Below are positions 2,832 through 50,301 of a stretch of 64,000 bases of DNA, piece after piece. Origin of the DNA: an uncultured Alphaproteobacteria bacterium (GTDB lineage Bacteria; Pseudomonadota; Alphaproteobacteria; SP197); the NCBI GenBank assembly GCA_943787175.1, contig CALSLK010000010.1, positions 62,001 to 126,000 of the forward strand, given 5' to 3'. The notes beneath the pieces were generated by a model. That model did not search any database. It was not told where the DNA came from and worked only from the letters and a program-made list of their open reading frames with translations. Positions within the stretch are counted from its first letter, which is position 1, and every line of letters begins with the position of its first letter. The translations under genes and the position numbers were made by a program.

Positions 2832-2904
2832 AGCGTGTCTGTTCAGGCTTGTGATCGCTGTTGCGGTTTCGCGCAATCCTGATCCGCTCTAGTCTGCCTC
2901 CACC

Positions 2905-3789
2905 ATGGTTGCTTTGTTCCGCTTCCCCAAATTGATCGGCGCCGCACTGGCTGCAGGAGCGCTGATCACGCCGTCGCTTGCACAGTCTCAGGACCTGCCG
3001 CAGGCCGTCCTGATCGACGTCGAGCAGGTCTATGAGTATCGCAAGCCCTCACAGATTGGTTTCATCGAGCTTGAGGATTTCGAACTCCCGGTCCTTGAAT
3101 ACGTTGAGGACATGATGTTCGCGGCCAATATCGATCCGCTCTATCCCGGAGACGAAGCTGGCGAGGCAACGATCCGCATTACCGTGCGTGGCCGGGCCAA
3201 TGGCGGCATCTACATGGAACCGACCAAGGCCTACCTATACACCGGCGCCGACATCACGGGCGATATCGAGATCACAGGCCCCGGAGACACGCTGGTGACG
3301 GCGACGTTCGCGTCAACCATTCAGCGCCCTTTCCAGCTGACCATCAATCTGGGCTACGAAGATCCCTTCAACGCGCCATTCGGGACAGCGCTGGAACAGC
3401 CAGGCGGATTCATTGAAGAGTTAAGTTACGCACTCGCCATAGCCTGGGGTGCCCAGGCGATCATGCCTTCGCTGTTTGAGCATGAGCCGGCCATTCGGGC
3501 CGGCGCGGCGACCGCCCTGGGCGATATCGGTGATCCCATTGCCGTGCCTGATCTGCTGGACGCGCTATACGATGAGGATGCTCGCGTGCGTTGGGAATCG
3601 GCATGGTCTCTGGGACGCATCGGTGATCCCGTTGCCGTGCCGGAACTGATCGACGCACTGCGCGACGAATCGCCTGATGTACGCTGGTTTTCTTCCTGGT
3701 CGCTGCGTGCCCTCACGGGCGAGGATTTTGGCCTCGACCACGAGCTCTGGTCAGCCTGGCTGTCAGAACAGCCTGACGTGCAGGGCTAA
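2905..3789 (+). CDS. HEAT-repeat (PBS lyase-type) exported protein
   Basis: 294 residues with a signal peptide (hydrophobic 10-26, ending SLAQSQD). Residues about 27-165 form an acidic domain I do not recognise. The C-terminal part has tandem HEAT/PBS-lyase repeats: IRAGAATALGDIGDP, VRWESAWSLGRIGDP and VRWFSSWSLRALTGE, each followed by AVPDLLDAL or AVPELIDAL. These repeats are a binding scaffold; nothing points to bilin chemistry here. A hairpin terminator follows and the convergent AsmA gene ends 46 bp downstream. Function unknown. Confidence 0.8.
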   Translation: MVALFRFPKLIGAALAAGALITPSLAQSQDLPQAVLIDVEQVYEYRKPSQIGFIELEDFELPVLEYVEDMMFAANIDPLYPGDEAGEATIRITVRGRANGGIYMEPTKAYLYTGADITGDIEITGPGDTLVTATFASTIQRPFQLTINLGYEDPFNAPFGTALEQPGGFIEELSYALAIAWGAQAIMPSLFEHEPAIRAGAATALGDIGDPIAVPDLLDALYDEDARVRWESAWSLGRIGDPVAVPELIDALRDESPDVRWFSSWSLRALTGEDFGLDHELWSAWLSEQPDVQG

Positions 3790-3798
3790 GGTCAAGTT

Positions 3799-3833
3799 GG
3801 CGGCTCCTGAATGGGGAGCCGCCAGAAATTTTC
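3799..3833. terminator. Bidirectional intrinsic terminator between convergent genes
   Basis: A perfect 9-bp stem, GGCGGCTCC (3799-3807) and GGAGCCGCC (3815-3823), closes a 7-base loop. It is followed on the plus strand by AAATTTT. It lies between the stops of the HEAT-repeat gene (3789) and the AsmA gene (3835), so it can serve both strands. Confidence 0.8.
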
Positions 3834-3834
3834 C

Positions 3835-5880
3835 TCAGAACAGATCGCCCAGGCCACCACTATCGCCATCACCGGTGAGACCGTCGAGCAGGCCACCTGC
3901 GTCACCACCTTCGCCGGTGAGGCCGTCAAGCAGGCCGCCGGCGTCATCGCCACCCAGCATCTCCAGGGTTTCGCCAATGGCTTCCGGATTGGCCAGCGCG
4001 TTCTTGGCGATCGCTTCCAGATCAGGCGTTATTGCAGGTCCGGCCCAGGGGCCGCGCACGTTGATTGGAATGCCAAAGCCTCCGGTGTCGTCCGCACCCT
4101 GGCCTTCCAGTGAGGACGTGGCCTTGGGCGTGATGGTGTAGTCCAGCGTCTTGTCGGGCATGTTGACGTTGCCCTGGCCATCCATGCGGAACAGCGGTGC
4201 CGACATGAAGAGGTCGTTGTTGGCCAGCATGCCGTTCTGGATGTTGTAGGTGCCCGAGAGTTCAGCAAAATCCGTGGACTCGGATGGTGAAACGGCTTCG
4301 CCGATGGATTCAATCGAAAGGTCACGAACCACAGCTGCAATATTGATGCCCTTGAAGGCCCCATCGCGGAACGTGAAGGCGCCGTTGCCAAAGAGGTTCT
4401 CTACAAACTGACGCTGCGAGACACCGGTCGCCGTGACATCGATGTTGAGATCTGCCGTTCCCGAAAGTTTGTCGAAGCCGGCTGCGGCTGCAAGCAGGGG
4501 TTCTGCCTGGATACCGGTTGCCGAGAAGGTCTTGGCGATGGCGGGTTGCGAGCCGCTGCGATCAACCACGACATGAGCGGTTCCGTTGCCGCCATAAAGC
4601 GCCGCTTCCAGAAGGTCGACAGTTGCTGAGCCGTTGTTGACGACAATGTGGAGCCTGCTGCGGCCGATTTCGATTGCCTGAACCTTCAGGCCGGCAAGAT
4701 CAAAGGTAAGGTCAGCATTGGCGGCATCGAGACCGGAGAAATCGATCTCCTCGTCCGACCATCGCTGTGCCAGCGAATCCCCGCCATCAGACGTCTCACC
4801 GCCACCGTCGCTGCTGCCACCGGCGTCTCCGGTGCCTTCTTCAGGCTGAGGCAGGTAGGGATTGAGGTCGAGCATATCCGACTGCAGGTTCGCAGTAATG
4901 CTGGGTCGGTCACCGCCAAGATTGACGGCGATATCGCCCCGCGCCTTGAGTTCATCAATCGTCACTTCGGCACCGTTGAAGGCGATGTTGTCGCCGTTCA
5001 TGTCGAGCGTGCCGCTGACCTGGATTGTTTCAGGTGCAGGGCTTGCTGGATCAAGGGGCTGCTCCATCCAGAGTGCCAGGCCCGAAAGTGAAGGGATGGA
5101 GAGATCGACCTTGCCGGTCACCGCGCCAGCTTGGGCAACGCTGCCGTTGAAGCTGACATTGAGCGGTTCGCTTTCGATGATCACCGTGGCGTCAGACGAG
5201 CCGCCGTCCATCAGGGCCTTGGGTGAGGCCAGGCTGGTCGCCAGCTTGAGCGTCTTCTCCTTGAACGTGAACGAGCCTTCACCGTTGAACGGGCTGGCAA
5301 GGTCAGGCAGGGAGAGCACCATGTTGATGCCTGAAACAACGGTCGTCTCGCCGGACTTGCCGTCGACAAAGGTCACCTGGCCGTTCTCGATGCGCACGTC
5401 ACCCAGGGTAAGGTTCGCCAGACCGCTACCGCCGGAATCGGCTGTGCCTTCTGTTTGCGAACCGTCCGAAGCTGTGCCTTCTGCGCCTGGTTCCGGCGTG
5501 AACTGCCAGTTGCCGCTGCCGTCGGGTTGGCCTTCGAGATAGATCACGGGGTCGATCAGAACAAACTCATCGACCACCAGGTCACCGCTCAGCAGGGGCA
5601 TCAGCTGGACGTCCAGTGCCAGTTTGGAAAGCGACACCATATCGGTAACGGGGCTGCCGGGTTCGTTGGCAAAATGCACGTCGTTGGCTTCGATCCGGAC
5701 ATTGGGGAAGACCGAAAGGCTGACATCGCCGGCAATGGTCAACTGGCGACCTGTTGCCTGGCTGGCCTTGGTCTGTGCCTGCTCCTTGACCCAATCAACG
5801 GGAATGAAAAACGGCAGGGCCACGACCGCTCCAATAAGCAGAACGACGACAACTCCCAGTCCGATTAGCAACTTGCGCAT
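3835..5880 (-). CDS. AsmA family protein
   Basis: 681 residues from the ATG at 5880, chosen over a farther ATG because GGGGAG lies just upstream on the coding strand. One N-terminal membrane anchor (hydrophobic about 4-25) is followed by a long beta-rich periplasmic region typical of AsmA/YhdP-like proteins, which in other bacteria affect outer-membrane lipid transport and assembly. An Asp/Gly/Ser-rich linker lies near residues 325-350. The C-terminus carries an imperfect duplication of D-A-G-G-L-L-D-G-L-T-G-x-G. It is transcribed towards the shared terminator at 3799. Family assignment is firm; the role here is inferred. Confidence 0.87.
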   Translation of the reverse strand: MRKLLIGLGVVVVLLIGAVVALPFFIPVDWVKEQAQTKASQATGRQLTIAGDVSLSVFPNVRIEANDVHFANEPGSPVTDMVSLSKLALDVQLMPLLSGDLVVDEFVLIDPVIYLEGQPDGSGNWQFTPEPGAEGTASDGSQTEGTADSGGSGLANLTLGDVRIENGQVTFVDGKSGETTVVSGINMVLSLPDLASPFNGEGSFTFKEKTLKLATSLASPKALMDGGSSDATVIIESEPLNVSFNGSVAQAGAVTGKVDLSIPSLSGLALWMEQPLDPASPAPETIQVSGTLDMNGDNIAFNGAEVTIDELKARGDIAVNLGGDRPSITANLQSDMLDLNPYLPQPEEGTGDAGGSSDGGGETSDGGDSLAQRWSDEEIDFSGLDAANADLTFDLAGLKVQAIEIGRSRLHIVVNNGSATVDLLEAALYGGNGTAHVVVDRSGSQPAIAKTFSATGIQAEPLLAAAAGFDKLSGTADLNIDVTATGVSQRQFVENLFGNGAFTFRDGAFKGINIAAVVRDLSIESIGEAVSPSESTDFAELSGTYNIQNGMLANNDLFMSAPLFRMDGQGNVNMPDKTLDYTITPKATSSLEGQGADDTGGFGIPINVRGPWAGPAITPDLEAIAKNALANPEAIGETLEMLGGDDAGGLLDGLTGEGGDAGGLLDGLTGDGDSGGLGDLF

Positions 5881-8398: not shown

Positions 8399-9331
8399 TC
8401 ATGCCGCCAAGAACCTGTTTATCACATCTTGCTGCTGCTGTTGTTGAGCCTGTGGAGATGTGGTCAAGGCGATAGCCTTGTCCATCATATCCATGGGCCG
8501 CCCGTTTCCGAAGGCCTCGGCGGGCGTTTGGCCGTCGTGGACCGAATGTGGCCTCTCAGTATTGTAAAAATTGACCCAATCGCCGATGACCTGTTCGGCC
8601 TTGAACCCATCCGTCAGCTCGTGCAGATAGACCGCCTCGTATTTGAGAGAGCGCCACAGCCGCTCGATGAAGATGTTGTCCATGCAGCGGCCCCGGCCAT
8701 CCATGGAGATCGTAACCTCTGCCGCCTTGAGCAAACCGGTGAAGTCAAAGCTGGTGAACTGGCTGCCCTGGTCGGTGTTGAAGATCTCCGGTTTTCCATA
8801 TCGGGCTAGCGCCTCGTTTAACGCCTCAAGGCAGAACCAGACATCCATGGTGTTCGACAATCGCCAGGCGAGTACATGACGCGTGGCCCAGTCCATGATC
8901 GCAACCAGGTACAAAAAGCCGCGCTGAACGGGGATATACGTGATGTCGGCACACCAGACTTGATTGGGCCGGTCGATGACCATTCCCTTGAGAAGATAGG
9001 GATAAATCCGGTGCGCCGGATGGGGTGTACTGGTCTTTGGCGCTTGATAGATCGCCTCCAGCCCCATGAGGTGCATCAGACGACGGACCCGGTGACGCCC
9101 CACGCAAATGCCCTCGCGCCGCAACTGGCGCACCATCTGACGGGAACCGTAAAACGGATACTTCAGAAACAGCTCGTCGATGCGACGCATCAACGCCAGG
9201 TTCTCCACGCTTTCGCCCTTCGACCTGTAATAGAACGACGAACGGCTGATCGCCAGAACTTGGCACTGTTGGCTCAAACTCAGGTCGGGGTGATCGCGTC
9301 TGATCATCGCCTTGCGATTCCCCCGGCTCAT
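8399..9331 (-). CDS. IS3-family transposase OrfB (DDE integrase domain)
   Basis: 310 residues. An N-terminal HTH-like region (YPFYGSRQMVRQLRREG) is followed by an rve integrase core with the catalytic triad in ADITY, NTDQGSQF and FIERLWRSLKYE. A Gln-rich run (AQQQQQQ) lies near the C-terminus. Its ATG overlaps the TGA of orfA (ATGA at 9328-9331). A -1 shift at the heptamer in orfA would enter this frame and yield the OrfAB transposase that cuts and joins ends in this family. Confidence 0.93.
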   Translation of the reverse strand: MSRGNRKAMIRRDHPDLSLSQQCQVLAISRSSFYYRSKGESVENLALMRRIDELFLKYPFYGSRQMVRQLRREGICVGRHRVRRLMHLMGLEAIYQAPKTSTPHPAHRIYPYLLKGMVIDRPNQVWCADITYIPVQRGFLYLVAIMDWATRHVLAWRLSNTMDVWFCLEALNEALARYGKPEIFNTDQGSQFTSFDFTGLLKAAEVTISMDGRGRCMDNIFIERLWRSLKYEAVYLHELTDGFKAEQVIGDWVNFYNTERPHSVHDGQTPAEAFGNGRPMDMMDKAIALTTSPQAQQQQQQDVINRFLAA

Positions 9332-12358: not shown

Positions 12359-13087
12359 ATGTCGACAGTGCGACGAATTCTGGTGGTCGAGGATGAAGAA
12401 TCCGTCCGCCAACGTATGGCGCGTATTCTGCAGTTCGAAGGCTATGAGGTCGACGCGGCACAGGATGTCGGCGAGGCAATACGCCATCTCGAGCAGCTGC
12501 CGCCAGATGTGATTTTATGCGACATCATGATGCCCAAGGGCGATGGCGTGGATCTGGTCAGTCTGGTGCGCTCGCGGGCCCTGACGCGTTTGATTCCCAT
12601 TGTCATGGTGACGGCGCTGACCGAACGTCGATGGCAGCGCAGGTTCATGGAGCTGGGTGCGGACGATTTCCTCACCAAACCCTTCCGAGCCGAGGAACTT
12701 ATCGCCGCGGTCGAAACCCAATGCGCAAAGCTCTCCTGGCATGAGCAGGCCATGGAGAATGCCTCGCCTGCACGGACACGCAGGTTTGCCGGCCGGAGCT
12801 TTGAACCGGTTCAGCGTGCTCTGAAGGTGGCGGGCCAGGAAGATGCGACACTGACCACCAAGGAAGCCCAGCTGCTGACCATTCTACTGGATCATTCCGG
12901 AGAGAATCTCTCTCGCGAGAGCATCATGGTGGCCATGGGGCGTGAATATGATCCCTTGGATCGCGGCATCGATATCCTGATCGGGAGGCTGCGCAAGCTG
13001 ATTGGTGATGACACCCGCAACCCCAGTGTCGTTTGCACTGTGCGCGGACAAGGTTACCGACTGAATGCGGAAGTCAGAATGGAATAG
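12359..13087 (+). CDS. OmpR/PhoB-family response regulator (paralogue of the preceding gene)
   Basis: 242 residues from the ATG at 12359. The frame is open to 12272 but the receiver domain begins immediately after 12359. Receiver with E11-D12, phospho-acceptor Asp55 (LCDIMMP), MVTALT and LTKPF; winged helix with LTTKEAQLLTILL and IDILIGRLRKLIGDD. It follows the first regulator after a 203-bp gap with its own leader, so it may be expressed separately. No second kinase is adjacent, so both regulators may share the CHASE4 kinase or this one answers a distant kinase. A GC-rich hairpin follows. Confidence 0.92.
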   Translation: MSTVRRILVVEDEESVRQRMARILQFEGYEVDAAQDVGEAIRHLEQLPPDVILCDIMMPKGDGVDLVSLVRSRALTRLIPIVMVTALTERRWQRRFMELGADDFLTKPFRAEELIAAVETQCAKLSWHEQAMENASPARTRRFAGRSFEPVQRALKVAGQEDATLTTKEAQLLTILLDHSGENLSRESIMVAMGREYDPLDRGIDILIGRLRKLIGDDTRNPSVVCTVRGQGYRLNAEVRME

Positions 13088-13322: not shown

Positions 13323-14831
13323 ATGTCCCGTGTTGCCCTTGGTGCCAGTGCCTTAGGAATTGCCGATGTCGCCGTTGTTGCGCGTGGCAAGGCGCAAGCT
13401 GAACTGGCGCCGCAAGCGCGCGAGGCCATGCAGCGTTCACGTGACGTGGTCGAACGCTTTACGGCTGAGGACCGGCCGGTCTATGGCCTGACCCGCGGCC
13501 TTGGCGGCCGGGTCGTCCATGAAATCAGCCAGGCCGAACGTGAGGATTACAGCCGGGTCACGGTTCTGGCCCGTGCCTGTGGTGCGGGTGATCCGCTTCC
13601 GGTCGATGCCGTGCGGGCTGCCATGTTCGCGCGTGCCAGCAGCATGGCCCAGGGTGGTGCAGGTGTGCGCCCGCTCATTGTCGATACCTTTTGCGCCATG
13701 CTGGATGCAGGTGTGCATCCCTATATTCCCTCCATCGGCTCGGTTGGCGCGTCTGATCTTGCCTTGTGCGCCAACATGGCCTTGCCCCTGATGGGTGAGG
13801 GGCGGGCGCATTATCAGGGTGCGTGGATAGATGGTGCGCAAGCCATGAAGAAGGCGGGGATTGAAATCGCCGCGCCGCAGGAAAAGGAAGGCCTGGCGCT
13901 CTGTTCAGCCAACTCCATTTCCGTTGGCGTGGGTGCCCTGGCGCTTGCCGATGTTACCGAACTGCTGGAATTGATGGACGGCATCGCTGTGCTGACCTTC
14001 GAAGCCTTTCGTGCCAATCCCAGTCCCATCGATCCGCGCGTCGTGATGGCGCGCGGCGCACCGGGTCAGGCACGCGCGGCACAGAGCCTGCGTGAGAAAC
14101 TCGCCGGTACGGCGCTCTTCGAACCTGGCCAGGCGCGCCGTGTTCAGGATCCCATCAGCCTGCGTTGTGCCAGCCACGTGCATGGCAGCTTGCGCGCGAC
14201 CATCGACTTCTGCAGGCCAAATGTTGAGGTCGAGTTGAACGGAGCGGGTGACAATCCGGTCGTTCTGGCCGATCACGACGAAATCCTCTCCAACGGGAAC
14301 TTCCATACGCCGGCCATGGCGATTGCCTTTGACGCTCTGGTTCTGGCGATCAGCCAGGTGGGAGAAATGGCCGCCCAACGTGTCGGGCGTTTGATGCAGA
14401 ACCAGTACACCGACCTTCCCAACGGGCTCACCAGTCATGGTCACACCCAGATCGGATTTGGTATTCTCAACATGACGTCGGAAACCCTGGTGAAGGAAAT
14501 CCGCATTCTGGGCATGCCTGCCAGCCTGCATGATGGTTCGGCCTATAACGTCGAAGACCATGCGCCGATGACCCCGCTTGCCGTGCGCAAGGCCGCATCT
14601 TCTATCGATCTGCTACGCCAGGTCGCGGCCTGCGAGCTTATCGCCGCCGCCCAGGCCTTTGATCTGCGTGCGCCGGCAAAGAGTGCTCCAATTGCGCGTG
14701 CCTTGCGCGATGCCGTGCGTGAGACGGTCGCCCCGCTTGATGGCGATCGCAGTATGACCCATGAACTTGTAGCGGTTGCAGATCGCGTTCGCGCGGGCGA
14801 CTTTCTGGCTTGTCTCGACGCAAGGGACTGA
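13323..14831 (+). CDS. HAL/PAL-family aromatic amino acid lyase-like protein, noncanonical MIO triad
   Basis: 502 residues, usual length for the family. In known members an Ala-Ser-Gly triad cyclises to the MIO electrophile that removes ammonia from His, Phe or Tyr. Here the conserved block reads GSVGASDLAL, so the triad is Ala143-Ser144-Asp145; relative to GSVGASGDL one glycine is missing. Other landmarks are present: Tyr54 (YGLTRGLGG), NPVV, NFH (326-328) and NVEDH. The usual YSLRC tyrosine is Ile278 (PISLRC) and PQVHG is SHVHG. AGGAG precedes the ATG. An oxygenase gene follows 35 bp later, probably in one operon. Fold certain; substrate and MIO formation uncertain. Confidence 0.85.
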   Translation: MSRVALGASALGIADVAVVARGKAQAELAPQAREAMQRSRDVVERFTAEDRPVYGLTRGLGGRVVHEISQAEREDYSRVTVLARACGAGDPLPVDAVRAAMFARASSMAQGGAGVRPLIVDTFCAMLDAGVHPYIPSIGSVGASDLALCANMALPLMGEGRAHYQGAWIDGAQAMKKAGIEIAAPQEKEGLALCSANSISVGVGALALADVTELLELMDGIAVLTFEAFRANPSPIDPRVVMARGAPGQARAAQSLREKLAGTALFEPGQARRVQDPISLRCASHVHGSLRATIDFCRPNVEVELNGAGDNPVVLADHDEILSNGNFHTPAMAIAFDALVLAISQVGEMAAQRVGRLMQNQYTDLPNGLTSHGHTQIGFGILNMTSETLVKEIRILGMPASLHDGSAYNVEDHAPMTPLAVRKAASSIDLLRQVAACELIAAAQAFDLRAPAKSAPIARALRDAVRETVAPLDGDRSMTHELVAVADRVRAGDFLACLDARD

Positions 14832-14866: not shown

Positions 14867-15847
14867 ATGACGGTGACGGCTGGCGAGATTCCCGTTCTTG
14901 ATCTGGGCCCGTGGCTGGCGGGAGAAAACGGCGCGCTTGATCGTCTGGCTGCCGATCTGCGCCGTGCCTGCATCGACGTCGGATTCTACTTTATCGCCAA
15001 CCACGGCGTTGATCAGGATCTGGTCGACCGCACGTTCGATCAGACCGCAGCCCTGCATGCCCTGCCTGAGGATGTGAAGACCGCCTACCGGATCAACAAA
15101 CACAACATCGGCTTCATGGCCTCGAAAGCCAGCATGCAGCGTTCTTCGGCCGTGCATGACGCGACCAAACCCAATCTGGTGGCGTCCTATTTCATGAAGC
15201 GTGATCGAGCACCAGATGATCCCGCTGTCGTGGAAAACCTGCCATTGCGCGGCATGAACCAGTGGCCCGCTGAACTGCCGGAATTCCGGCCCGTCATGCT
15301 CGCCTACATGAACGCCATGGAAACCCTGGGAAAGCGGATGTTGCCGGTTTATGCGCGGTCTCTGGACCTTCCGGTGGACTATTTCGCATCGTCGTTTCGC
15401 GAGCCCAGCATCACGTTGCGCATCTCGCACTATCCGACCCAGGACAGCTTCGATGGAGAGGAGTTTGGAACCGGGCCCCACACCGATGCCGGGTTCATGA
15501 CCATGCTGGCTCAGGCAGAAGTGCGCGGCCTAGAAATCCTTACACGCGACGGAGAATGGAAATCAGCACCGGTTCTGCCCGGCGCCTTTCTGGTCAATAT
15601 CGGCCAGATGCTGACGCGCTGGACCAACGATGTCTTTCCATCAACACCACATCGCGTGGTCAACCTTGCGGGACGGGAACGATTCTCGATTCCATTTTTC
15701 TTTGATCCTGATTTCGAGGCTGTGGTGTCGTGCCTGCCGACCTGCTCAGATGCCGACAACCCACCCAGGCACGCGCCGATCCGTTATCTCGATCACATCC
15801 TTGCGTTCACCAACAAGAATTTTGATCACCGTGGCAAGGCGGCCTGA
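14867..15847 (+). CDS. Isopenicillin N synthase-like 2OG-Fe(II) oxygenase
   Basis: 326 residues. N-terminal DIOX_N-type region (IPVLDLGPWL; CIDVGFYFIANHGV) and C-terminal 2OG-FeII_Oxy core. Iron ligands are His205 and Asp207 (GPHTDAG) and His262 (STPHRVVN); the 2-oxoglutarate-binding R-x-S is Arg272/Ser274. Members hydroxylate, desaturate or form ethylene-type products; the substrate cannot be read here. GAGGAGA lies just before the ATG. Same strand and close behind the lyase, so the two may act in sequence on one amino-acid-derived compound. The 3' end overlaps the convergent GNAT gene by 22 bp. Confidence 0.9.
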   Translation: MTVTAGEIPVLDLGPWLAGENGALDRLAADLRRACIDVGFYFIANHGVDQDLVDRTFDQTAALHALPEDVKTAYRINKHNIGFMASKASMQRSSAVHDATKPNLVASYFMKRDRAPDDPAVVENLPLRGMNQWPAELPEFRPVMLAYMNAMETLGKRMLPVYARSLDLPVDYFASSFREPSITLRISHYPTQDSFDGEEFGTGPHTDAGFMTMLAQAEVRGLEILTRDGEWKSAPVLPGAFLVNIGQMLTRWTNDVFPSTPHRVVNLAGRERFSIPFFFDPDFEAVVSCLPTCSDADNPPRHAPIRYLDHILAFTNKNFDHRGKAA

Positions 15848-16410: not shown

Positions 16411-16452
16411 GCACACACCCATTCTGACTGTGACAATCTGGAGCGCACTGCC

Positions 16453-17580
16453 ATGAAGCGCAATCTGGCGCGCGCATTTCTGGGTGTGTTGATTGTTGTG
16501 TTGTTGCTGGCGGCAACAGCCGGCGTACTTTGGCATCGTTATGGTGAAGCAGTCACCACACTGCATGCCCTGCTGGAAGCGCCTGCGGGGATTGTGCCCG
16601 AAGGTGTCGAACGCCTCGATCTCACGATGATCGACGGTGACACCACACGCAAAGCCTATATCTATGATCCTGTTGCCGGTGCACGCGCGGTTCTTCTTCT
16701 GGTGCCCGGCCTAACGCCTGCCGGGCGCGAAGATGCACGGGTCACGGCCGTCGCCGGTGCTTTGGCGCAGGCGGGATTCAGAACCGTGGTGCCGGACCTG
16801 CCCGGTGCAAAACGCCTGCGTGCCGACGCCGATGATGCCGGCGTCATCGCCCTGTTGTTCAGCCGGTTTGCTCTGGATGCACAACGCGAAGATCTGCCTT
16901 TGGTGGTTGTGGCAATTTCCTATGGTCAGGGCCCGGCGCTGGTCGCGTTGGCCGAACCGGCACGGGCTGTCTTGCTGGATCGGTATGTCGGCCTGGGCGG
17001 TTACTTCGACGCAACCTCTGTTCTGGCGTTTGCAACAACAGGGGTTGCCGGGTCGGGGGCTGATGCAAGGTTGGGTATGCCCGACCCGCGTGCGCGCTGG
17101 ATCGTGCTCAAGGCCAATGCCGATCTTGCCACCCTGGCGTCAGATCGTGTCGCGCTGGACCGGCTTGCTGACCAGGGTCTTTGGGGACAATCGCCTTCCA
17201 TGGCTGACATCGCGGTAACGATGGCGGGCCTGCAGCCCGATGCACAGGCGCTTTTGACCTTTGTTGCCAACGTCCAGCCCGAACGGGTCGATACCCTGCT
17301 TGAGGCGCTGGAGCCGGACCTGCGTGCATCCGTGGAGGGCCTGTCGCCCTCCCGCCATGACCTCACGGCACTGGAAGGCAAACTCCTGCTGGTTCATGGC
17401 GATATCGACCCCATCGTTCCTGTCGAGGAGACTTTCGCCCTGGCTGAGGCGGTATCGGGTACGACGGTCAGGATCGTGCCGGGCTTTTCTCATATCGAGC
17501 CGGAATCGACCGGAATTGCCGGCCAGATCGCCATGATCCGTGCTGTCAGGGAACTTCTCGATACCCGCGCCTTGCCCTGA
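16453..17580 (+). CDS. Membrane-anchored alpha/beta hydrolase
   Basis: 375 residues from the ATG at 16453 (MKRNLARAF). An N-terminal hydrophobic anchor (8-27) is followed by an alpha/beta hydrolase domain. Candidate triad: Ser in AISYGQG, where the usual G-x-S-x-G starts with Ala; Asp in HGDIDPIVPVE; and His in GFSHIEPES. Oxyanion-side segment LLLVPGLTPAG. Substrate unknown; an esterase or peptidase acting outside the cytoplasm is plausible. A hairpin with five T residues follows. Confidence 0.82.
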   Translation: MKRNLARAFLGVLIVVLLLAATAGVLWHRYGEAVTTLHALLEAPAGIVPEGVERLDLTMIDGDTTRKAYIYDPVAGARAVLLLVPGLTPAGREDARVTAVAGALAQAGFRTVVPDLPGAKRLRADADDAGVIALLFSRFALDAQREDLPLVVVAISYGQGPALVALAEPARAVLLDRYVGLGGYFDATSVLAFATTGVAGSGADARLGMPDPRARWIVLKANADLATLASDRVALDRLADQGLWGQSPSMADIAVTMAGLQPDAQALLTFVANVQPERVDTLLEALEPDLRASVEGLSPSRHDLTALEGKLLLVHGDIDPIVPVEETFALAEAVSGTTVRIVPGFSHIEPESTGIAGQIAMIRAVRELLDTRALP

Positions 17581-17587
17581 ACCCGGT

Positions 17588-17614
17588 GCCGTGTAACGAA
17601 ACGGCTCGGTTTTT
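17588..17614 (+). terminator. Intrinsic terminator after the hydrolase gene
   Basis: A short stem GCCGT (17588-17592) and ACGGC (17601-17605) is followed by TCGG and a run of five T (17610-17614). It lies 7 bases past the hydrolase stop and 15 bases before the HAD gene. Confidence 0.55.
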
Positions 17615-17629
17615 CAGCGCGGTTGTTCC

Positions 17630-18517
17630 ATGCCCAAGACAACACCTTCCATGCCCCCCCTGATTGAGGGCCTTTCCGCCATTGCGGACAATTATGACGG
17701 CCTGCTGGTTGATCTGTGGGGTTGTCTTCACAACGGCATGGAGGCTTATCGCGATGCGGTGGATGCGCTGCAGCGGTTCCGTGCGCGTGGCGGTCGGGTA
17801 ACGCTGTTGTCGAACGCGCCGCGCCGGGAAGATGCCGTGGCTTCCCAGATTGCCGGTTTTGGTGTGCCCGAAGATGCCTGGGATGCGATCATGACGGCGG
17901 GGATCGCTGTCCGGCTGGAAATGGAAGAGCGCGGTGATCCCTGGTTCGCGGACCTGGGGCGGAACTTTTACCATATCGGCACAGACAAGGACGCCGGCCT
18001 CCTGGATGGTCTGGGCTATGAGCGCACCGGCATGGATGACGCCGACTTTGTCCTGTGCTGCGGTATTCGTCATGGTGAGGAAGTGCTCGAAGATGTTGTT
18101 CCTGAACTCAATGCCGCCTTGGCACGCAACCTGCCGCTGGTTTCCGCCAACCCCGACCGTTTCGTTTTGCGCGGGCCAAAGCGCCAGATCTGTGCCGGGA
18201 GTATGGCGCTTGCCTATCGCGAGATGGGCGGTGACGTGCGTCAGGAAGGCAAACCGTTCCCGGCTGTCTACCGGCGCTGTCAGTCCCTGATGGCCGGCAT
18301 CGATCCCAGCCGCATTCTGGCGATCGGTGACGGCATCGAAACCGATATCGTCGGTGGTCGTGATAACGGTATCGACACGCTCTGGATCACCGGCGGCCTG
18401 CCGGCCAGCTTCTGGGATGTTCCGCCACACGAAGCCCCTCCGCAGGAGCGCGTGCTCGCGGCATGTCGTGAGCACGATGTGACACCCTCTGCTATTCTGC
18501 CACTGCTCCGCTGGTAA
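17630..18517 (+). CDS. HAD-superfamily class IIA hydrolase (TIGR01459/NagD-like)
   Basis: 295 residues. Class IIA HAD phosphatase: motif I is LLVDLWGCLHNG, where the nucleophile Asp is kept and the second Asp of DxD is Trp, as in the TIGR01459 group. Motif II is LLSNAPRR, the Lys is in GKPFPAVY and motif III is IGDGIETDIVGGRDNG. A cap domain lies between motifs II and III. Family members act on small phosphorylated metabolites. It lies 18 bp before the molybdopterin oxidoreductase gene on the same strand, so co-transcription is likely, although no functional link is evident. Confidence 0.87.
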   Translation: MPKTTPSMPPLIEGLSAIADNYDGLLVDLWGCLHNGMEAYRDAVDALQRFRARGGRVTLLSNAPRREDAVASQIAGFGVPEDAWDAIMTAGIAVRLEMEERGDPWFADLGRNFYHIGTDKDAGLLDGLGYERTGMDDADFVLCCGIRHGEEVLEDVVPELNAALARNLPLVSANPDRFVLRGPKRQICAGSMALAYREMGGDVRQEGKPFPAVYRRCQSLMAGIDPSRILAIGDGIETDIVGGRDNGIDTLWITGGLPASFWDVPPHEAPPQERVLAACREHDVTPSAILPLLRW

Positions 18518-18535
18518 CCCGGAAAGACGCACGCC

Positions 18536-20629
18536 ATGGATGACGCCGCAACAAACCCGACCTTTGGCTACAGTGTCTGTCCACACGATTGCCCATCGAC
18601 CTGCGCTCTGGAGGTCGAGGTTCTGGGTCCCGACCGGATCGGGCGGGTGCGTGGCGCCAAAGACAACTCCTACACCGCTGGCGTGATCTGCGCCAAGGTC
18701 GCGCGTTATGCCGAGCGTATCCACCATCCCGACCGCCTGACCCAGCCCCTGCGCCGCACCGGCCCCAAGGGCTCAGGCCAGTTTGCGCCGATCTCCTGGG
18801 ATGAAGCGCTCGATGAGGTTGCCGCGCGTTTTCAGGAGGCCGAAGACCGCTTCGGGCCTGAGACCGTATGGCCTTATTACTACGCGGGCACGATGGGTTT
18901 CGTGATGCGCGACGGCATCAACCGTCTGCGCCACGTCAAAGGCTACAGCGGCCAACACAGCACGATCTGCACGACGCTGGCATGGACCGGTTTCATGGCT
19001 GGAACCGGAGCGTTGATGGGCCCGGACCCGCGCGAGATGGCAAAGTCCGATTGCGTCGTGATCTGGGGCACCAACCCGGTCAACACGCAGGTCAACGTCA
19101 TGACCCACGCCATCCGCGCCCGCAAGGAACGCGGTGCGAAGATTGTGGTGATTGATACCTACCGCACCGGCACGGCCGAACAGGCTGACCTGTTCCTGTG
19201 TGTGCGTCCGGGCACCGATGCGGCGCTGGCTTGCGGCGTCATGCATGTGCTGTTTCGTGACGGCTTTGCCGACCACGAATGGATGGCCGTCAACACAGAC
19301 GATCCCCAAGCGCTGGAACATCACCTCAAGGACAAGACGCCAGCCTGGGCTGAATCTGTTTGTGGTGTTCCTGCTGACGAGATCGAGGCGTTCGCGCATC
19401 TGATTGGTGAAACGCCGCGCACCTATCTGCGCCTGGGTTACGGCTTCTGCCGCGGCCGCAACGGCGCGATGTCGATGCATGCCGCGTCCTGTATCTCGTC
19501 TGTCACCGGTTCCTGGCGTCACGAGGGCGGCGGATCGTTTCACAACAACGGTGCAATCTACCATTGGGATCGCACGGTGCTCGAAGGCCTCGACAAACGA
19601 GACCCAAACGTAAGGGTTCTCGACCAGTCACGCATCGGCCCGGTTCTGACCGGTGACAAACACGATCTGGGTGAGGGGCCCCCGGTCACTGCCCTGCTGA
19701 TCCAGAACACCAACCCCATGATGATCGCGCCTGATCTGGGCCTGGTGCACAAGGGCTTTCAACGCAACGACCTGTTTGTCTGCGTCCATGAGCAGTTCAT
19801 GACCGAGACCGCGCAGATGGCCGATATCGTGCTGCCCGCGACCATGTTCCTGGAACATGACGATCTCTATCAGGGCGGTGGACATCAGCACATCCTATGG
19901 GGCCCCAAACTGGTCGATGCCCCCGATGGATGCCGCAGCAACCATGAGGTCATCTGTGAACTGGCCAGGCGTCTGGGTATCGCAGACCAGCACGAGGGTT
20001 TTGCCATGAGCCCAACGGAACTTTGCGATCAGGTGATGCAGGCATCCGGCTGGGGCGATCTTGAAAATCTGATCGAAAAGCACTGGATGGATGTGCAGCC
20101 TGATTTTGAGGCGTCACATTTCATCGACGGATTTGGTCATGCTGACGGGCGCTTCCACTTCCGGGCGGACTGGTCGAGCAGCGCAAACCGCTTTGGTCCC
20201 GAAGGCATGCCCGACGCCATGCCCGGCCTGCCCGACTTCTGGGATGTGATCGACCGCAGCGATGCCGAACGGCCTTACCGCCTGGTGACGGCACCTGCGC
20301 GCAATTATCTGAACTCGAGCTTCACGGAAACACCGACTTCGCAGAAACGCGAAGGGCGCCCGACGGTGCAGATTCACAGTGAAGACGCTGCTGGCGCCGG
20401 CATCGAGGACGGAGCCAAGGTGCGTATTGGCAATGAGAAAGGCAGTGTGCTGCTGCATGCCCAAATTACGCAGGGCCAGCGGCGCGGGACCGTGATTGTC
20501 GAGAGTGTCTGGCCCAACGCTGCATTCGAAGAAGGGATCGGCATCAACCTGCTGGTTTCTGCCGATCCCGGTGCTCCGATTGGCGGAGGCCTGTTTCACG
20601 ACACGGCGGTCTGGCTCAAGTCCACCTGA
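18536..20629 (+). CDS. Molybdopterin-dependent oxidoreductase (DMSO reductase family)
   Basis: 697 residues. N-terminal Molybdop_Fe4S4 motif with Cys15, Cys19, Cys23 and Cys52 (CPHDCPSTC ... GVICAK), then the molybdopterin-binding domain (SWDEALDEVA; VIWGTNPVNT; IVVIDTYRTGTA) and a C-terminal Molydop_binding domain (RNYLNSSFTETPTSQ). No twin-arginine signal, so it is probably cytoplasmic. The size and the motif NTNPMMIAPD fit the assimilatory or formate-dehydrogenase-like branch; the substrate cannot be assigned. No electron-transfer subunit or cofactor-chaperone gene is adjacent. Intact. Confidence 0.9.
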   Translation: MDDAATNPTFGYSVCPHDCPSTCALEVEVLGPDRIGRVRGAKDNSYTAGVICAKVARYAERIHHPDRLTQPLRRTGPKGSGQFAPISWDEALDEVAARFQEAEDRFGPETVWPYYYAGTMGFVMRDGINRLRHVKGYSGQHSTICTTLAWTGFMAGTGALMGPDPREMAKSDCVVIWGTNPVNTQVNVMTHAIRARKERGAKIVVIDTYRTGTAEQADLFLCVRPGTDAALACGVMHVLFRDGFADHEWMAVNTDDPQALEHHLKDKTPAWAESVCGVPADEIEAFAHLIGETPRTYLRLGYGFCRGRNGAMSMHAASCISSVTGSWRHEGGGSFHNNGAIYHWDRTVLEGLDKRDPNVRVLDQSRIGPVLTGDKHDLGEGPPVTALLIQNTNPMMIAPDLGLVHKGFQRNDLFVCVHEQFMTETAQMADIVLPATMFLEHDDLYQGGGHQHILWGPKLVDAPDGCRSNHEVICELARRLGIADQHEGFAMSPTELCDQVMQASGWGDLENLIEKHWMDVQPDFEASHFIDGFGHADGRFHFRADWSSSANRFGPEGMPDAMPGLPDFWDVIDRSDAERPYRLVTAPARNYLNSSFTETPTSQKREGRPTVQIHSEDAAGAGIEDGAKVRIGNEKGSVLLHAQITQGQRRGTVIVESVWPNAAFEEGIGINLLVSADPGAPIGGGLFHDTAVWLKST

Positions 20630-24738: not shown

Positions 24739-24840
24739 GGTCATCCCGGAAACTGCGCAGCAGTGATCCAGGATCTCAAGAGGTCGGCGTTTGCCTGTCG
24801 AGGCCCCGGATCACCGCTTCGCGCTGTCCGGGGTGACACC
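24739..24840. repeat. Intergenic palindromic repeat, GTCATCCCGG family, copy 2
   Basis: GGTCATCCCGGA (24739-24750) is inverted, with changes, at TCCGGGGTGACACC (24827-24840). Inside is a second perfect hairpin, CCCCGGA (24804-24810) with TCCGGGG (24827-24833). It fills the gap between two convergent MFS genes, so it could also end transcripts from both sides. Confidence 0.7.
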
Positions 24841-24859
24841 GGGTTTTTGATTGAGACCG

Positions 24860-26070
24860 TCACATGCTCTTTGGCAGATGCCGCGCGTACCAGGCGTAGA
24901 CGAACATGGCCAAGCCTGTGGCCATGAAGACGGCATCGAGCTCGAAGAAGATCAGGATCACGCGTGTAGACCGTGGGAACGACCAGCCCGACCATGTCGC
25001 GGAACGTGCCATAGACCATCGACATCTCGGTGCGCTCCCGGCTTCGGACGGCGCGCAGGAACGGTGTGTTGCCCGCTGCCTCCAGGCTGGTCAGCGACAC
25101 CGCCGAGAGCAGCACCAGGCCCATCACGATCCAGGGGTCGCCGAAGGTGATGCCGGCCAGAAGGATGATCGCTGCCGGTGATGACCAGGCCGCCGATCAT
25201 GTGGCGGCGCATGCCGATGCGCGCCATCAACCTGCCCCAGAGCGGCGCCGCCAGCTGGATGCCGCTGCAGAAGGACAGGGCCAGCCCGCCGGCGGGAAGG
25301 TCGATCCCCCAGACCTTGACCTCCATGCCGTTTCGTTCGGCATAGACCGGCAGGTAGAGGTAGATCATCCACCACCAGTTCTCGCGCCCGAAGATCAGGA
25401 AAGGTAGGCCAGCCGCAGACCGCGGCTGCCTGAGAAACCGCGGCACATAGGTCAGGGGATTGGTCACTGGGTCTTTGGGCGCGGCCTTCAGAATCGGCGT
25501 CTCGTCGATGCGCACGAAGACCAGGTAGGCAATCAATGCCAGGGCAACGAAGGCCGAGGTCAGGAACGGCACAGCCAGCCCCATGTTCTGGTAGAGCCAG
25601 AGTCCCAGCGTCGGACCGATGGCCCAGGGCACCGACGCCATCAGCACACGGATCGGCTCGGACCGGCCCATGTCGCGCTTGCGGATATAGGCCATGATGA
25701 AAAGCGACAGGCCAACAGCTAGGCAATTGGCGGCAAACACGCGCAGGAACAGGCCCCCAAATACTGTCGTGAAGGTGCTGATCGCCATGATCAGGGGTGC
25801 AATGGCGACCAGCAGCGCACCCAGCTGATAGGTCCTGACGGGTTTAAGCCTGTGCACGACAAAGGGAATGGCAAAGGCCGATGCGATCGACACCACGCCG
25901 ACAATCACGAACATGAAGGTCATTCTGAGATCGCTGCCGCCCAGAAGATCATAGGCGACCACCGGGATGACCGGCGCAACGATGGAACGCGCAAGGCTCT
26001 CCAGCGCCCAGAAGCTGGCGAACATCCACGGCCCGGGACGGGTCAGTTCGGCGACGAAACGAAGACGCAT
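24860..26070 (-). pseudogene. MFS transporter, frame-disrupted (two +1 breaks)
   Basis: Reconstructed length about 402 residues from ATG 26070 (MRLRFVAELTRPGPW) to TGA at 24860. Twelve-helix MFS of the same subfamily as the gene at 32855: both share the G-R-x-E-P-x-R-V-L segment and end W-Y-A-R-x-x-P. One extra base near 25171 shifts the frame (then I-I-L-L-A-G-I-T-F-G-D) and another near 24962 shifts it again (then I-L-I-F-F-E-L-D). The length is 2 modulo 3, agreeing with two insertions. Conserved sequence on both sides suggests a recent lesion or sequence error. Substrate unknown. Confidence 0.8.
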
Positions 26071-26203
26071 CAGCGCCCCTTCAGACAAACGTGACCCGAA
26101 TGCCGGGACCGAATCCCTCATATCACGGTCTTGGGTTGTCGCATCTCCCTGATTTCGGTCAGGATGGGGTAGAGATTTGAATCCGCTTCGCGGACCTGCA
26201 CCG

Positions 26204-26268
26204 GCCCGCTCCCCCATCCGACCGCCCATTCAGGATACTGCCGTGGGTGGCCGGGTAGGGGAGCGGGC
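26204..26268. repeat. Large imperfect palindrome between the MFS and pepN promoters
   Basis: A perfect 11-bp outer stem GCCCGCTCCCC (26204-26214) / GGGGAGCGGGC (26258-26268) continues inwards as about 15 further mostly paired positions around a loop near 26230-26242. It lies in the 230-bp gap between two divergent genes, not after a gene, so it is more likely an operator, transcript leader structure or mobile palindrome than a terminator. Confidence 0.65.
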
Positions 26269-36073: not shown

Positions 36074-37251
36074 ATGATTGATGTCACAAGAGCAAGGGCA
36101 GAAACGCCCGGTATCGAACATCAGGCGTTTTTCTACAACTCCGGCGCGGGCCTCATGCCCAGGCCCGTGCTCGACGCCCTGCACGAGCACCTCGATCTTG
36201 AAGCCAGGATCGGCGGTTATGCCGCAGAGGAAGCTGCCGCGCCCAAGCTGCAGGCGACCTACGAGTGCCATCGCGCGCATGCTGAACTGCTCGACCGACG
36301 AGGTTGCCGTGGTGGAAAACGCCACCGTTGCGTGGTGCCAGGCGTTTTATGGCCTGGCCCAGGACATGCAGCCCGGCGACAACGTCGTCACGGTGGTGGC
36401 CGAATACGCCTCGAACTTCATCGCCCTGCTCCAGACCGTCAAGCGGCGCGGTATCGAGATTGTCGTGGCCCCCAACGATGCCAGCGGCCAGGTCGATGTC
36501 GCGGCCCTGGAGGCCCTGATCGATGACCGCACCAAACTGATCGCCGTGACCCACGTCCCCACCTCCGGCGGCCTCGTGACCCCCGCCGCCGAAGTCGGAA
36601 AGGTCGCGCGCAGAGCACGGCGTGCCCTACCTGCTGGACGCCTGCCAGTCGGCCGGCCAGATGCCGCTGGACGTGCAGGAGCTGGGCTGCGATTTCCTCT
36701 CGGCCACCGGCCGCAAGTTTCTGCGCGGGCCGCGTGGCACCGGGTTCCTCTATGCCAGCAAGGCCATCATGGAACGCCACGAGCCGCCGGTTCTTGATCT
36801 CCATTCCGCCGAATGGGTCGCGCCGGACCGCTATGAGATGGCGGCAACGGCCCGGCGTTATGAGAACTGGGAGAATTACATCGCGGGCAAGGTCGGGCTT
36901 GGTGTCGCTGTCGACTACGCCCTGTCTTGGGGCCTGGAGAACATCCAGGAGCGCAACCGCCTGCTGGCCGATGACCTGCGTGAACGTCTGGGCATGATCC
37001 CGGGTGTTACGGTGCGCGATGCCGGCGTAGACCGCTGCGCTATCGTCAGCTTTAGCCATGACCGGTACAAGCCCGAGGAAGTCATGCAGCGGCTGGCCGA
37101 TCAGGGTATCGCCATCGGCAATTCGGCTCCGGGTTCCACCCGGCTTGATTTCGAAGCGCGCCGTCTGCCTGACCTGTGCCGCGCGTCGGTGCACTACCTC
37201 AACACGGAGGAGGAAGTGGCCCTGCTCGCCGCCGCGGTGGCGGGGCTTTAG
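36074..37251 (+). pseudogene. Class V aminotransferase (cysteine desulfurase-like), two +1 breaks
   Basis: Reconstructed length about 391 residues from ATG 36074 ([16 protein letters not shown]). PLP fold-type I enzyme of the SufS/isopenicillin-epimerase-like group: substrate loop [23 protein letters not shown], the PLP-binding [10 protein letters not shown], and the Schiff-base lysine in [16 protein letters not shown]. One extra base near 36266 and one near 36612 break the frame; length is 2 modulo 3, as expected. Conserved blocks lie in three frames and all key residues survive. Substrate unknown. Confidence 0.82.
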
Positions 37252-46418: not shown

Positions 46419-48002
46419 ATGCTTAGCTCGTCAGTGGTTCTTCCTCATCGCGTCGATCACCCTTGATTGGGATCGCGCTCCTCTCGTTGCTTTGGCAGAA
46501 CGCCCTGTGGTCGTTCGCCGTGGTCGGCCCGCTTGTCGTGCTGGGCCTGCTCGATGCAACCCATTCCAGGCACAACGTGCTGCGCAACTATCCCGTTGTG
46601 GGGCATCTGCGTTACTTTGCGGAGTTCATTCGCCCGAACATTCAGCAGTACTTCATCAACACCAACCGGTCGGGCCGGCCCTATCCGCGCGAGATTCGCG
46701 ATCTGGTCGATGCCCGTGCGCGCGGTGCCGAGGCGCTGCTGCCGTTCGGCACGCAACACGATGTTCTCTCGACCGGTGATGAGTTTTCTTATCACTCCCT
46801 GCATGTGAAACATGTGCCTGAGGAAGACGGTCGCGTGCTGGTCGGTGGCCCCGATTGCAAGCAGCCTTATCTTGCCTCACGTCTCAACATCTCGGCCATG
46901 AGCTTCGGGGCGTTGTCGTCCAATGCGGTCATCGCGCTGAACACCGGCGCGCGGATGGCCGGCTGTTTTCATGATACCGGGGAGGGCGGCCTCGCCGACT
47001 ACCATCTGCAGGGCGGCGGTGACGTCAGCTGGCAGATCGGCACCGGCTATTTCGGCGCACGCACCGAAGACGGCAAGTTTGATCGCGAACTCTTCAAGAA
47101 AAAGTCGCGGCTCGACAACGTCAAGATGATCGCGATCAAGCTCTCGCAAGGCGCCAAGCCCTCTCATGGCGGCGTTCTGCCATCAGCCAAGATCACACCG
47201 GAGATCAGCAGGATCCGCGGCGTGCCCATGGGCAAAGACTGCCTGTCACCACCCACCCACAGTGCGTTTTCCACACCCCGCGAACTGCTGGAATGCTGTG
47301 AAGCTGTTGCGGGAGCTTTCCGACGGCAAGCCCATCGGCTTCAAGCTATGCATCGGCAACAGGTCGGAGTTTCTGGGCATCGTGTAAGCGATGGTCGACA
47401 CCGGCATCAAGCCCGATTTCATTCAGGTCGATGGTTCCGAGGGCGGTACCGGTGCCGCCCCCATGGAGTTCACCAACCGGCTGGGCATGCCGATCAACGA
47501 GGCCATTGCCTTTGTCCACGATGCCCTGGTTGGTGCCGGTGTGCGCGACGACATCCGCCTGATCGCCAGCGGCAAGGTCGCGACCGGTTACGACATGGTG
47601 ACCAAGATCGCGCTGGGTGCCGATATGTGCAGTGCCGCGCGCGCCTTCATGTTTACGGTCGGCTGTATCCAGGCGCTTCATTGCCATACCAACAAATGCC
47701 CCACCGGCATCGCGACGCAAAACCCGATTCTGGCGCGGGCCGTTGTCGTGGCCGACAAGGCGCCCCCCGTTGCCAACTATCATGGCGAAACCATCCGGGT
47801 GTTGCGTGAGCTGGTCGGTGCCATGGGTCTGGAACGTATCGGTGATCTCGACCGCAGCCACATTCTGCGTCGCATGGATGACACCTCGGCAGACCGTTAC
47901 GACGAAATCTATCCCCCGCTCAAACCGGGCGATCTCGGTGTTGATACCGCGCCGGAACGCCTGGCCAGGGACTGGGCGCTGGCCGACGCGGATCGATTCT
48001 GA
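46419..48002 (+). pseudogene. FMN-binding glutamate synthase family protein, frame-disrupted
   Basis: About 526 residues when corrected. ATG 46419 leads to a hydrophobic N-terminus (SSVVFLIASITLIGIALL) after two extra bases near 46447-46465. The GltB-type FMN/central domain follows: NISAMSFGALSS, GARMAGCFHDTGEGG, KLSQGAKPSHGG, DGSEGGTGAAP, LIASGKVATG and the iron-sulfur-type CHTNKCPTGIATQ. Another extra base lies near 47303. A TAA at 47385-47387 interrupts F-L-G-I-V / A-M-V-D where Lys is expected (GTGTAAGCG versus GTGAAGGCG). Membrane-associated relatives of glutamate synthase; exact reaction unknown. A class II amidotransferase gene follows after 60 bp, which may supply ammonia. Confidence 0.82.
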
Positions 48003-49405: not shown

Positions 49406-50301
49406 GCCCCTCACGCCGCCGTGCTGCGGTTGATCATGTGCAGGTCCGGCTCGACGTGTCGCAGCGTCGTGCGTGCCGTGTGATCGGCCAGCATCGTTCG
49501 AGCCAACGCCTGCGTCTGATTGAACGTGACGACGAGGTGGCCCTGACGGCTGCCATCGTTGCACTGGCATCCGAGTATGGCCGCTACGGCTATCGGAGGA
49601 TCGCGGCTCTGCTGCGATCACGGGGCTGGAACGTGAACGTCAAACGTGTCTGGCGGACCTGGCGGCGTGAGGGGCTGAAGGTACCAACAAAGCAGCCAAA
49701 GCGCAGGCGGCTGTGGCTCAATGACGGATCGTGCATCCGTTTGCGTCCGAGCCGGCGCAATCATGTCTGGGCCTACGACTTCGTGCAGGACCGCACCCAT
49801 GACGGTCGGACGTTCCGGATGCTGACGGTGATCGATGAGTTCACACGTGAGTGCCTGGCGATCACCGTGGCCAGAAGGCTGCGGCATGACGACGTTCTGC
49901 AGGTTCTGGCCGATCTGTTCACCCACCATGGGCCGCCCGATCACATCCGTTCGGACAATGGCAGCGAGTTCACAGCCACTGCCGTGCGCAAATGGCTGCC
50001 GCGGGTTGGCGTAAAGACCCTGTTCATCGAACCGGGAAGCCCCTGGGAGAATGGCTACAACGAGAGCTTCAATGGCAAGCTGCGTGACGAGTTACTCAAC
50101 GGCGAGATCTTCACCACGCTGCACGAAGCCCAGGTGCTGATCGAACGCTGGCGTCAGCACTACAACACCGTCAGGCCACACAGCTCGCTGGGCTACAAAC
50201 CACCCGCTCCAGAAGCCATCTTGCCGCGCCCTGCAGGTCTGCCCTACGCTACGCTCCGGTCAGCCCAGCAGGGCGACCACAACCGCCGGACTCTAACATA
50301 G
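49402..50301 (+). CDS. IS407-group transposase OrfB (DDE integrase)
   Basis: The domain begins in the overlap with orfA ([10 protein letters not shown] near 49402) and has an independent GTG at 49438 giving 287 residues. HTH-like [15 protein letters not shown], then the rve core with the triad in [16 protein letters not shown] and [14 protein letters not shown], and the terminal HSSLGYKPP. It is probably made mainly as the OrfAB fusion. Intact. Confidence 0.93.

Follow-up and report, generated by a model that had tools for sequence, protein, structure and literature searches.

The window analysed here (a stretch of 64,000 nucleotides from an uncultured alphaproteobacterium) carries, at 13323..14831 on the + strand, a gene whose 502-aa product matches the HAL/PAL family over its full length (PF00221, 458 bits) and is probably a MIO-independent C-N lyase of the ergothionase branch of this fold, likely expelling trimethylamine from a quaternary-ammonium amino acid. 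The protein is neither HutH nor a classical ergothionase. It belongs to a group, called here the ASD clade after the Ala-Ser-Asp of its loop, which is a new, uncharacterised variant within the ergothionase branch. The initial annotation overlooked ergothionase, through which a branch of the HAL fold that works without MIO was already on record.

The degenerate MIO loop (13737..13760, + strand), delimited by sequence, alignment and the secondary structure of a model, is encoded by GGC TCG GTT GGC GCG TCT GAT CTT and reads G139-S-V-G-A143-S144-D145-L146. Compared with GSVGASGDL, this GSVGASDL lacks one residue: the Gly that follows Ala-Ser is absent and Asp is found instead. The loop, its codons GCG TCT GAT and residues 143-145, together with Tyr54, Ile278, SHVHG, NFH and EDH, had been described in the initial annotation exactly as the sequence has them. 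Among the landmarks of the family, ISLRC stands for YSLRC and SHVHG for PQVHG, and both NFH and EDH are present. In the alignment, the presumed catalytic base of HAL, Tyr53, is matched by Tyr54 (13482..13484, +) and is kept in all rows covering the site, while Arg281 and Glu411 correspond to HAL Arg283 and Glu414. Three further positions are those of Arg84 (13572..13574, +), aligned with HAL His83; Ile278 (14154..14156, +), aligned with HAL Tyr280; and Met384 (14472..14474, +), aligned with the lysine in the TIQK motif of ergothionase. The protein falls under every NCBIfam equivalog cut-off (for hutH, TIGR01225, it reaches 403 vs 539 bits).

A sequencing error or frameshift as the cause of the short loop is ruled out by the orthologues and by the dN/dS ratio. 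The clean reading frame had been taken earlier as sufficient proof of this; the frame is indeed clean locally, but the window is frame-broken at ~36.6 kb, where a class-V aminotransferase is split in two frames (36078-37251), and at ~47.4 kb, where the same happens to a glutamate-synthase-domain protein (46463-48002). Hence, it is the conservation of the loop in orthologues, and not the clean frame, that decides the matter. Elsewhere in the window, the C-terminal part of an MFS transporter (24958-26229, -) seems to run on in another frame (24741-25127, -), and two ORFs resemble IS3-type transposases (8399-9331, -; 49438-50301, +). All the close orthologues fetched (11/11, 62-93% identity) have the short loop with Ser-Asp; one of them reads GSFGGSDL, so that in the ASD clade Ser-Asp is invariant and Ala is not. 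Within the GTDB family of the window, 14 of 16 genomes carry the lyase gene (10/10 in the genus), with GS-x-G-[AG]-SDL at all the loci whose loop is readable (in G412 the match starts downstream of the loop), bearing in mind that this sample overlaps with the 11 close orthologues, as some records belong to both. The absence of the Gly is thus conserved in a clade, as the initial annotation had proposed to check, and no close homologue with ASG was found. By comparison, 12 of the 13 paralogues fetched from the same family have the normal GSVGASGDL with QDPYS. The thirteenth (L142, on contig C269 of G407) has a deleted loop too, GSIGSSDL, and is adjoined by an ornithine-cyclodeaminase-like fragment. 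A relative on a Streptomyces chartreusis plasmid, with 45% identity, also has a short loop (GSIGASDL). Between the window lyase and its nearest orthologue, L034, dN/dS is 0.034/0.767 (~0.045): the gene is under purifying selection.

The short loop is the property of a clade that is wider than the ASD group and includes ergothionase. The one-residue-deleted variants sampled comprise ASD, AAD, AGD, ADD, EAD and QAD, and among the relatives with 38-45% identity, which include the Streptomyces protein, those from Rhizobiales, Paracoccus and Azospirillum have GSIGAADL, GSIGAGDL and GSIGADDL. A tree from which the columns of the loop and of Tyr280 were excluded (a quick search, in which ergothionase 6s7j sits on a long branch) has a branch with SH-aLRT 100 that separates all deleted-loop proteins and 6s7j from all ASG and ACG enzymes. 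The five rows nearest 6s7j are 2.6 to 3.6 changes per column away from it, and the window protein is not among them. A second MIO-less type, GSVGYLTH, falls on the same side as the ASG enzymes; at least two changes between the MIO and the MIO-site-altered states are required on this tree. The GSVGYLTH rows come from Agrobacterium (L059), a Klebsiella plasmid (L061), L019-L022 and L098-L101; they have Pro, Ala or Gly at HAL Phe329 and, where annotated, are labelled hutH or aromatic amino acid ammonia-lyase. An archaeal relative on a Haladaptatus plasmid (L064, 5980-7479) has GSSDDL at the MIO site and adjoins a glycine-betaine-type ABC transporter. In most sister groups of the ASD clade, the MIO serine is replaced by Ala, Gly or Asp, so there is no serine to dehydrate. 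Unlike most of these sisters, every member of the ASD clade keeps Ser at this site and, for that reason, some modification at Ser144 may occur.

Some of the active-site columns change together with the loop. The position of HAL Tyr280 is Tyr in 34/34 of the ASG rows sampled and Leu, Ile, Val or Phe in 59/59 MIO-site-altered rows (43 deleted-loop, 15 YLTH and one GSSDDL). Three GSVGACGDL (Ala-Cys-Gly) rows, L090, L091 and L095, combine Leu at HAL 280 with Arg at HAL 277. Tyr53, Arg283 and Glu414 (PpHAL numbering) are kept in essentially all rows. The HAL His83 position is Arg in 34 of the 43 deleted-loop rows, including the whole ASD clade, and His in 36 of 37 MIO-type rows. Furthermore, in the ASD clade HAL Asn195 becomes Ser or Ala, and Gln413 becomes Val. 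According to these alignment columns, then, the changes lie around the prosthetic group, while the base and the carboxylate-binding residues are kept. The TIQK lysine, which is reportedly one of the catalytic residues of ergothionase, is common to ergothionase and to the AAD, AGD, Streptomyces and L122 proteins; in the alphaproteobacterial ASD clade its position is taken by Met, Leu or His. Since Met384 replaces this common lysine, the ergothionase mechanism is not directly transferable to the window protein.

Ergothionase is among the closest of the known systems. A 2026 paper, which cites the structure paper, states that the enzyme lacks MIO (PMC13405746). It is the only characterised member of its branch and releases trimethylamine (PMC13405746). 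The loop of the Treponema denticola enzyme (PDB 6s7j/6s7q), located by alignment to a Paraburkholderia ergothionase-type protein with GSMGEADI, is SSIGE-GDIT, the same one-residue deletion as in the window lyase, and its LQDPLSFRC likewise replaces Tyr280. Both proteins share the fold, the side of the tree and the residues Tyr53, Arg283 and Glu414. They differ in that their identity is 28%, the loop of ergothionase has E-G-D instead of A-S-D, the TIQK Lys is Met384 in the lyase, ergothionase has His in place of Arg84, and the lyase is without thiourocanate-pathway neighbours. Compared with Pseudomonas putida HutH (1b8f/1gkm), the lyase has the same fold, length, Tyr53, Gln277, Arg283, Phe329 and Glu414, but it has neither Ala-Ser-Gly nor Tyr280, and His83 and Asn195 are changed to Arg and Ser. 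A standard HutH is ruled out by the loop, Tyr280, the equivalog cut-off and the gene context. The nearest large sister groups (38-41% identity) are proteins named 'hutH' in Rhizobium, Martelella, Paracoccus and Azospirillum (GSIGAADL/GAGDL/GADDL); they have the same deletion but, unlike the lyase, lack the MIO serine and keep the ergothionase lysine. Several of them adjoin betaine-type transporters and ornithine-cyclodeaminase-like genes.

The predicted model of the lyase (from a 13-sequence alignment; pLDDT 79.4, pTM 0.84) has the HAL fold. Its best Foldseek match is HAL 1gkj (E 6.3e-29), with ergothionase 6s7j just behind (E 1.1e-26), and the VIA Z against 6s7j_F is 36.0 over 468 residues; in the model, the fold alone does not tell HAL from ergothionase. 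A helix (144-153) is predicted to begin at Ser144, next to residues 140-143 with pLDDT < 50; the Tyr54 loop is also of low confidence.

Regarding the gene neighbourhood, a 2OG-Fe(II) oxygenase (DIOX_N/2OG-FeII_Oxy by Pfam; 14867..15847, +) starts 36 bp past the lyase stop. The closest solved chain to this oxygenase is the ethylene/succinate-forming enzyme 9ovh (E 4.7e-62). Both genes are likely co-transcribed, and the oxygenase probably acts in the pathway of the lyase. Directly upstream lies a response regulator (12362..13087, +), and related regulators precede the lyase in several orthologous loci (tblastn synteny); it possibly controls the lyase. Downstream, an alpha/beta hydrolase, a HAD hydrolase and a molybdopterin oxidoreductase form a conserved block (16450..20629, +; Pfam, synteny in L034-L039) that is possibly linked to the lyase. 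The oxygenase is the usual partner gene of the lyase in part of the clade: L034-L039 largely share the gene order of the window (lyase, oxygenase, hydrolase, HAD, molybdopterin oxidoreductase), with not every gene detected everywhere, and in L040-L044 the lyase is present without the oxygenase. The neighbours in these latter loci (ribosomal S9, isochorismatase, DUF1989, M20 peptidase) are not conserved and were discarded as a clue to the substrate.

No hut genes were seen around the window lyase, nor was any urocanate-hydratase-type gene or betaine transporter near it; within the window's own clade, no betaine transporter or methyltransferase adjoins the lyase. Other members of the deleted-loop group do have such neighbours: a glycine-betaine-type ABC transporter lies near the Streptomyces ASD lyase and near rhizobial AAD lyases, and a divergent MttB methyltransferase adjoins the lyase of a near sister (L122). 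By analogy, these neighbours point to quaternary-ammonium substrates across the group, with a transporter context that is weak because OpuAC-type transporters also carry histidine. The window's genome (G000) has 12 matches to the MttB (trimethylamine methyltransferase) family, none of which adjoins the lyase. A Paraburkholderia ergothionase-type locus (L060) includes a urocanate-hydratase-type gene. The Agrobacterium YLTH locus (L059) brings together a urocanate-hydratase-like gene, a molybdopterin S/N-oxide reductase and a betaine transporter, and looks like an ergothioneine-sulfonate pathway. On Sinorhizobium meliloti pSymA (L067), an ergothionase-type lyase with GSVGQADM (2884-4524) is found ~2.7 kb from an annotated dimethylsulfoniopropionate lyase gene.

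Ornithine-cyclodeaminase-like genes, which sometimes directly adjoin the deleted-loop lyase, occur in 12/31 deleted-loop loci vs 0/8 flanked MIO loci, two sets that differ in flank length and kinship. The window's genome has its homologue (66% identity) on a different contig, among unrelated genes, and every genome of the family has one; on these grounds, this gene was rejected as a pathway clue. As to histidine degradation, related genomes carry a separate ASG HutH plus urocanase. In the window's genome (a 92% complete MAG) no intact canonical HutH was found, only fragments on contigs C16 and C26, and no urocanase; since 15/16 genomes of the GTDB family have urocanase, these absences may be a gap of the MAG and were given no weight. 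EgtD was not found in the window's own genome either, which implies only that no ergothioneine is made there by the EgtD route.

Because the protein is MIO-less, strongly selected and in possession of Tyr53, Arg283 and Glu414, the simplest explanation is a 1,2-elimination of trimethylamine or of a leaving group about as good. Deamination of His, Phe and Tyr needs MIO, given that ammonia leaves poorly and the acidity of the beta-proton is low; trimethylamine departs more readily than ammonia, and ergothionase does without MIO in releasing it. With a loop one residue shorter than that of Ala-Ser-Gly enzymes, no electrophilic prosthetic group would be formed, and we infer that MIO is absent from the folded protein. 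Arg281 would hold the substrate carboxylate, Tyr54 would remove the beta-proton, and a leaving group needing no activation would depart; the best candidate for it is the trimethylamine of a quaternary-ammonium (betaine) amino acid. A search of the literature on MIO-less or MIO-independent lyases returned only a mutant, the S153A RxPAL, which is without MIO and practically inactive (PMC3903478).

The elimination of trimethylamine has to be weighed against four other explanations. It is unlikely that the protein is a true ergothionase, or a trimethylamine-lyase of ergothioneine sulfonate or hercynine, diverged in sequence. It does share with 6s7j the deletion and the side of the tree, and Arg58 in its Tyr loop (TRG) matches the NRG of ergothionase; nevertheless, the alphaproteobacterial ASD clade has Met, Leu or His instead of the TIQK lysine, the urocanate-hydratase-type gene of L060 has no counterpart nearby (nor is there a betaine transporter), and other rows are nearer to 6s7j. 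The presence of Met384 and the lack of thiourocanate-pathway genes nearby make ergothioneine itself less likely, and it is probably not the substrate. Arg84, found across the ASD clade at HAL His83, could speak instead for an anionic substrate whose side chain it would bind, and from which another good leaving group (a different amine, a sulfonium or an oxygen) would depart; pocket residues unlike those of ergothionase and a 2OG oxygenase as partner gene are in line with this. Such a leaving group is nonetheless quite improbable, since the neighbours of the relatives suggest quaternary amines, and the sole characterised member of the branch releases trimethylamine (PMC13405746).

The invariance of Ser144-Asp145 in the ASD clade could mean that Ala-Ser-Asp cyclises to a substituted MIO-like group, making the protein an ammonia-lyase of new specificity. 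This is very improbable: the loop lacks one residue and the protein lacks HAL-Tyr280, one orthologue has GGSD, and both known MIO enzymes and GFP-type chromophores have Gly at the cyclising position. The initial annotation had offered a non-MIO lyase, a different cyclisation and some other chemistry as options. The first of these is supported by the ergothionase clade, the sisters without Ser and the loss of Tyr280; the second is unnecessary and disfavoured, because sisters whose loop is equally short lack a serine that could be dehydrated. No report of ASD-type proteins known to make MIO was found in the literature. Finally, loss of the prosthetic group would also be expected of an inactive paralogue retained for a role in regulation or assembly, but the equivalents of Tyr53, Arg283, Glu414 and Gln277 are kept, dN/dS is low and a known active relative, ergothionase, has the same loop length, all of which leaves this option with hardly any probability. 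Returning to the MIO-independent lyase, we tentatively suggest, as a possibility of nearly even standing, that the proteins of the ASD clade are MIO-free lyases of uncultured alphaproteobacteria which have their own catalysis (neither MIO nor the ergothionase lysine), a novel natural betaine or other pre-activated amino acid as substrate, and a dedicated 2OG-Fe(II) oxygenase.

Several deleted-loop relatives are publicly annotated as hutH, and none of them should make MIO by the standard route; these labels are not to be trusted. A simple rule based on two sites, by which ASG and Tyr280 are either both kept or both lost, would set true HutH apart from the MIO-less branch. This branch is large and mostly unstudied; its members probably break down quaternary-ammonium compounds, possibly with release of trimethylamine. 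The branch also offers a natural comparison for understanding why MIO is needed for ammonia and not for better leaving groups. In any case, application of the two-site rule would correct many annotations and indicate new betaine-degrading pathways in environmental bacteria.
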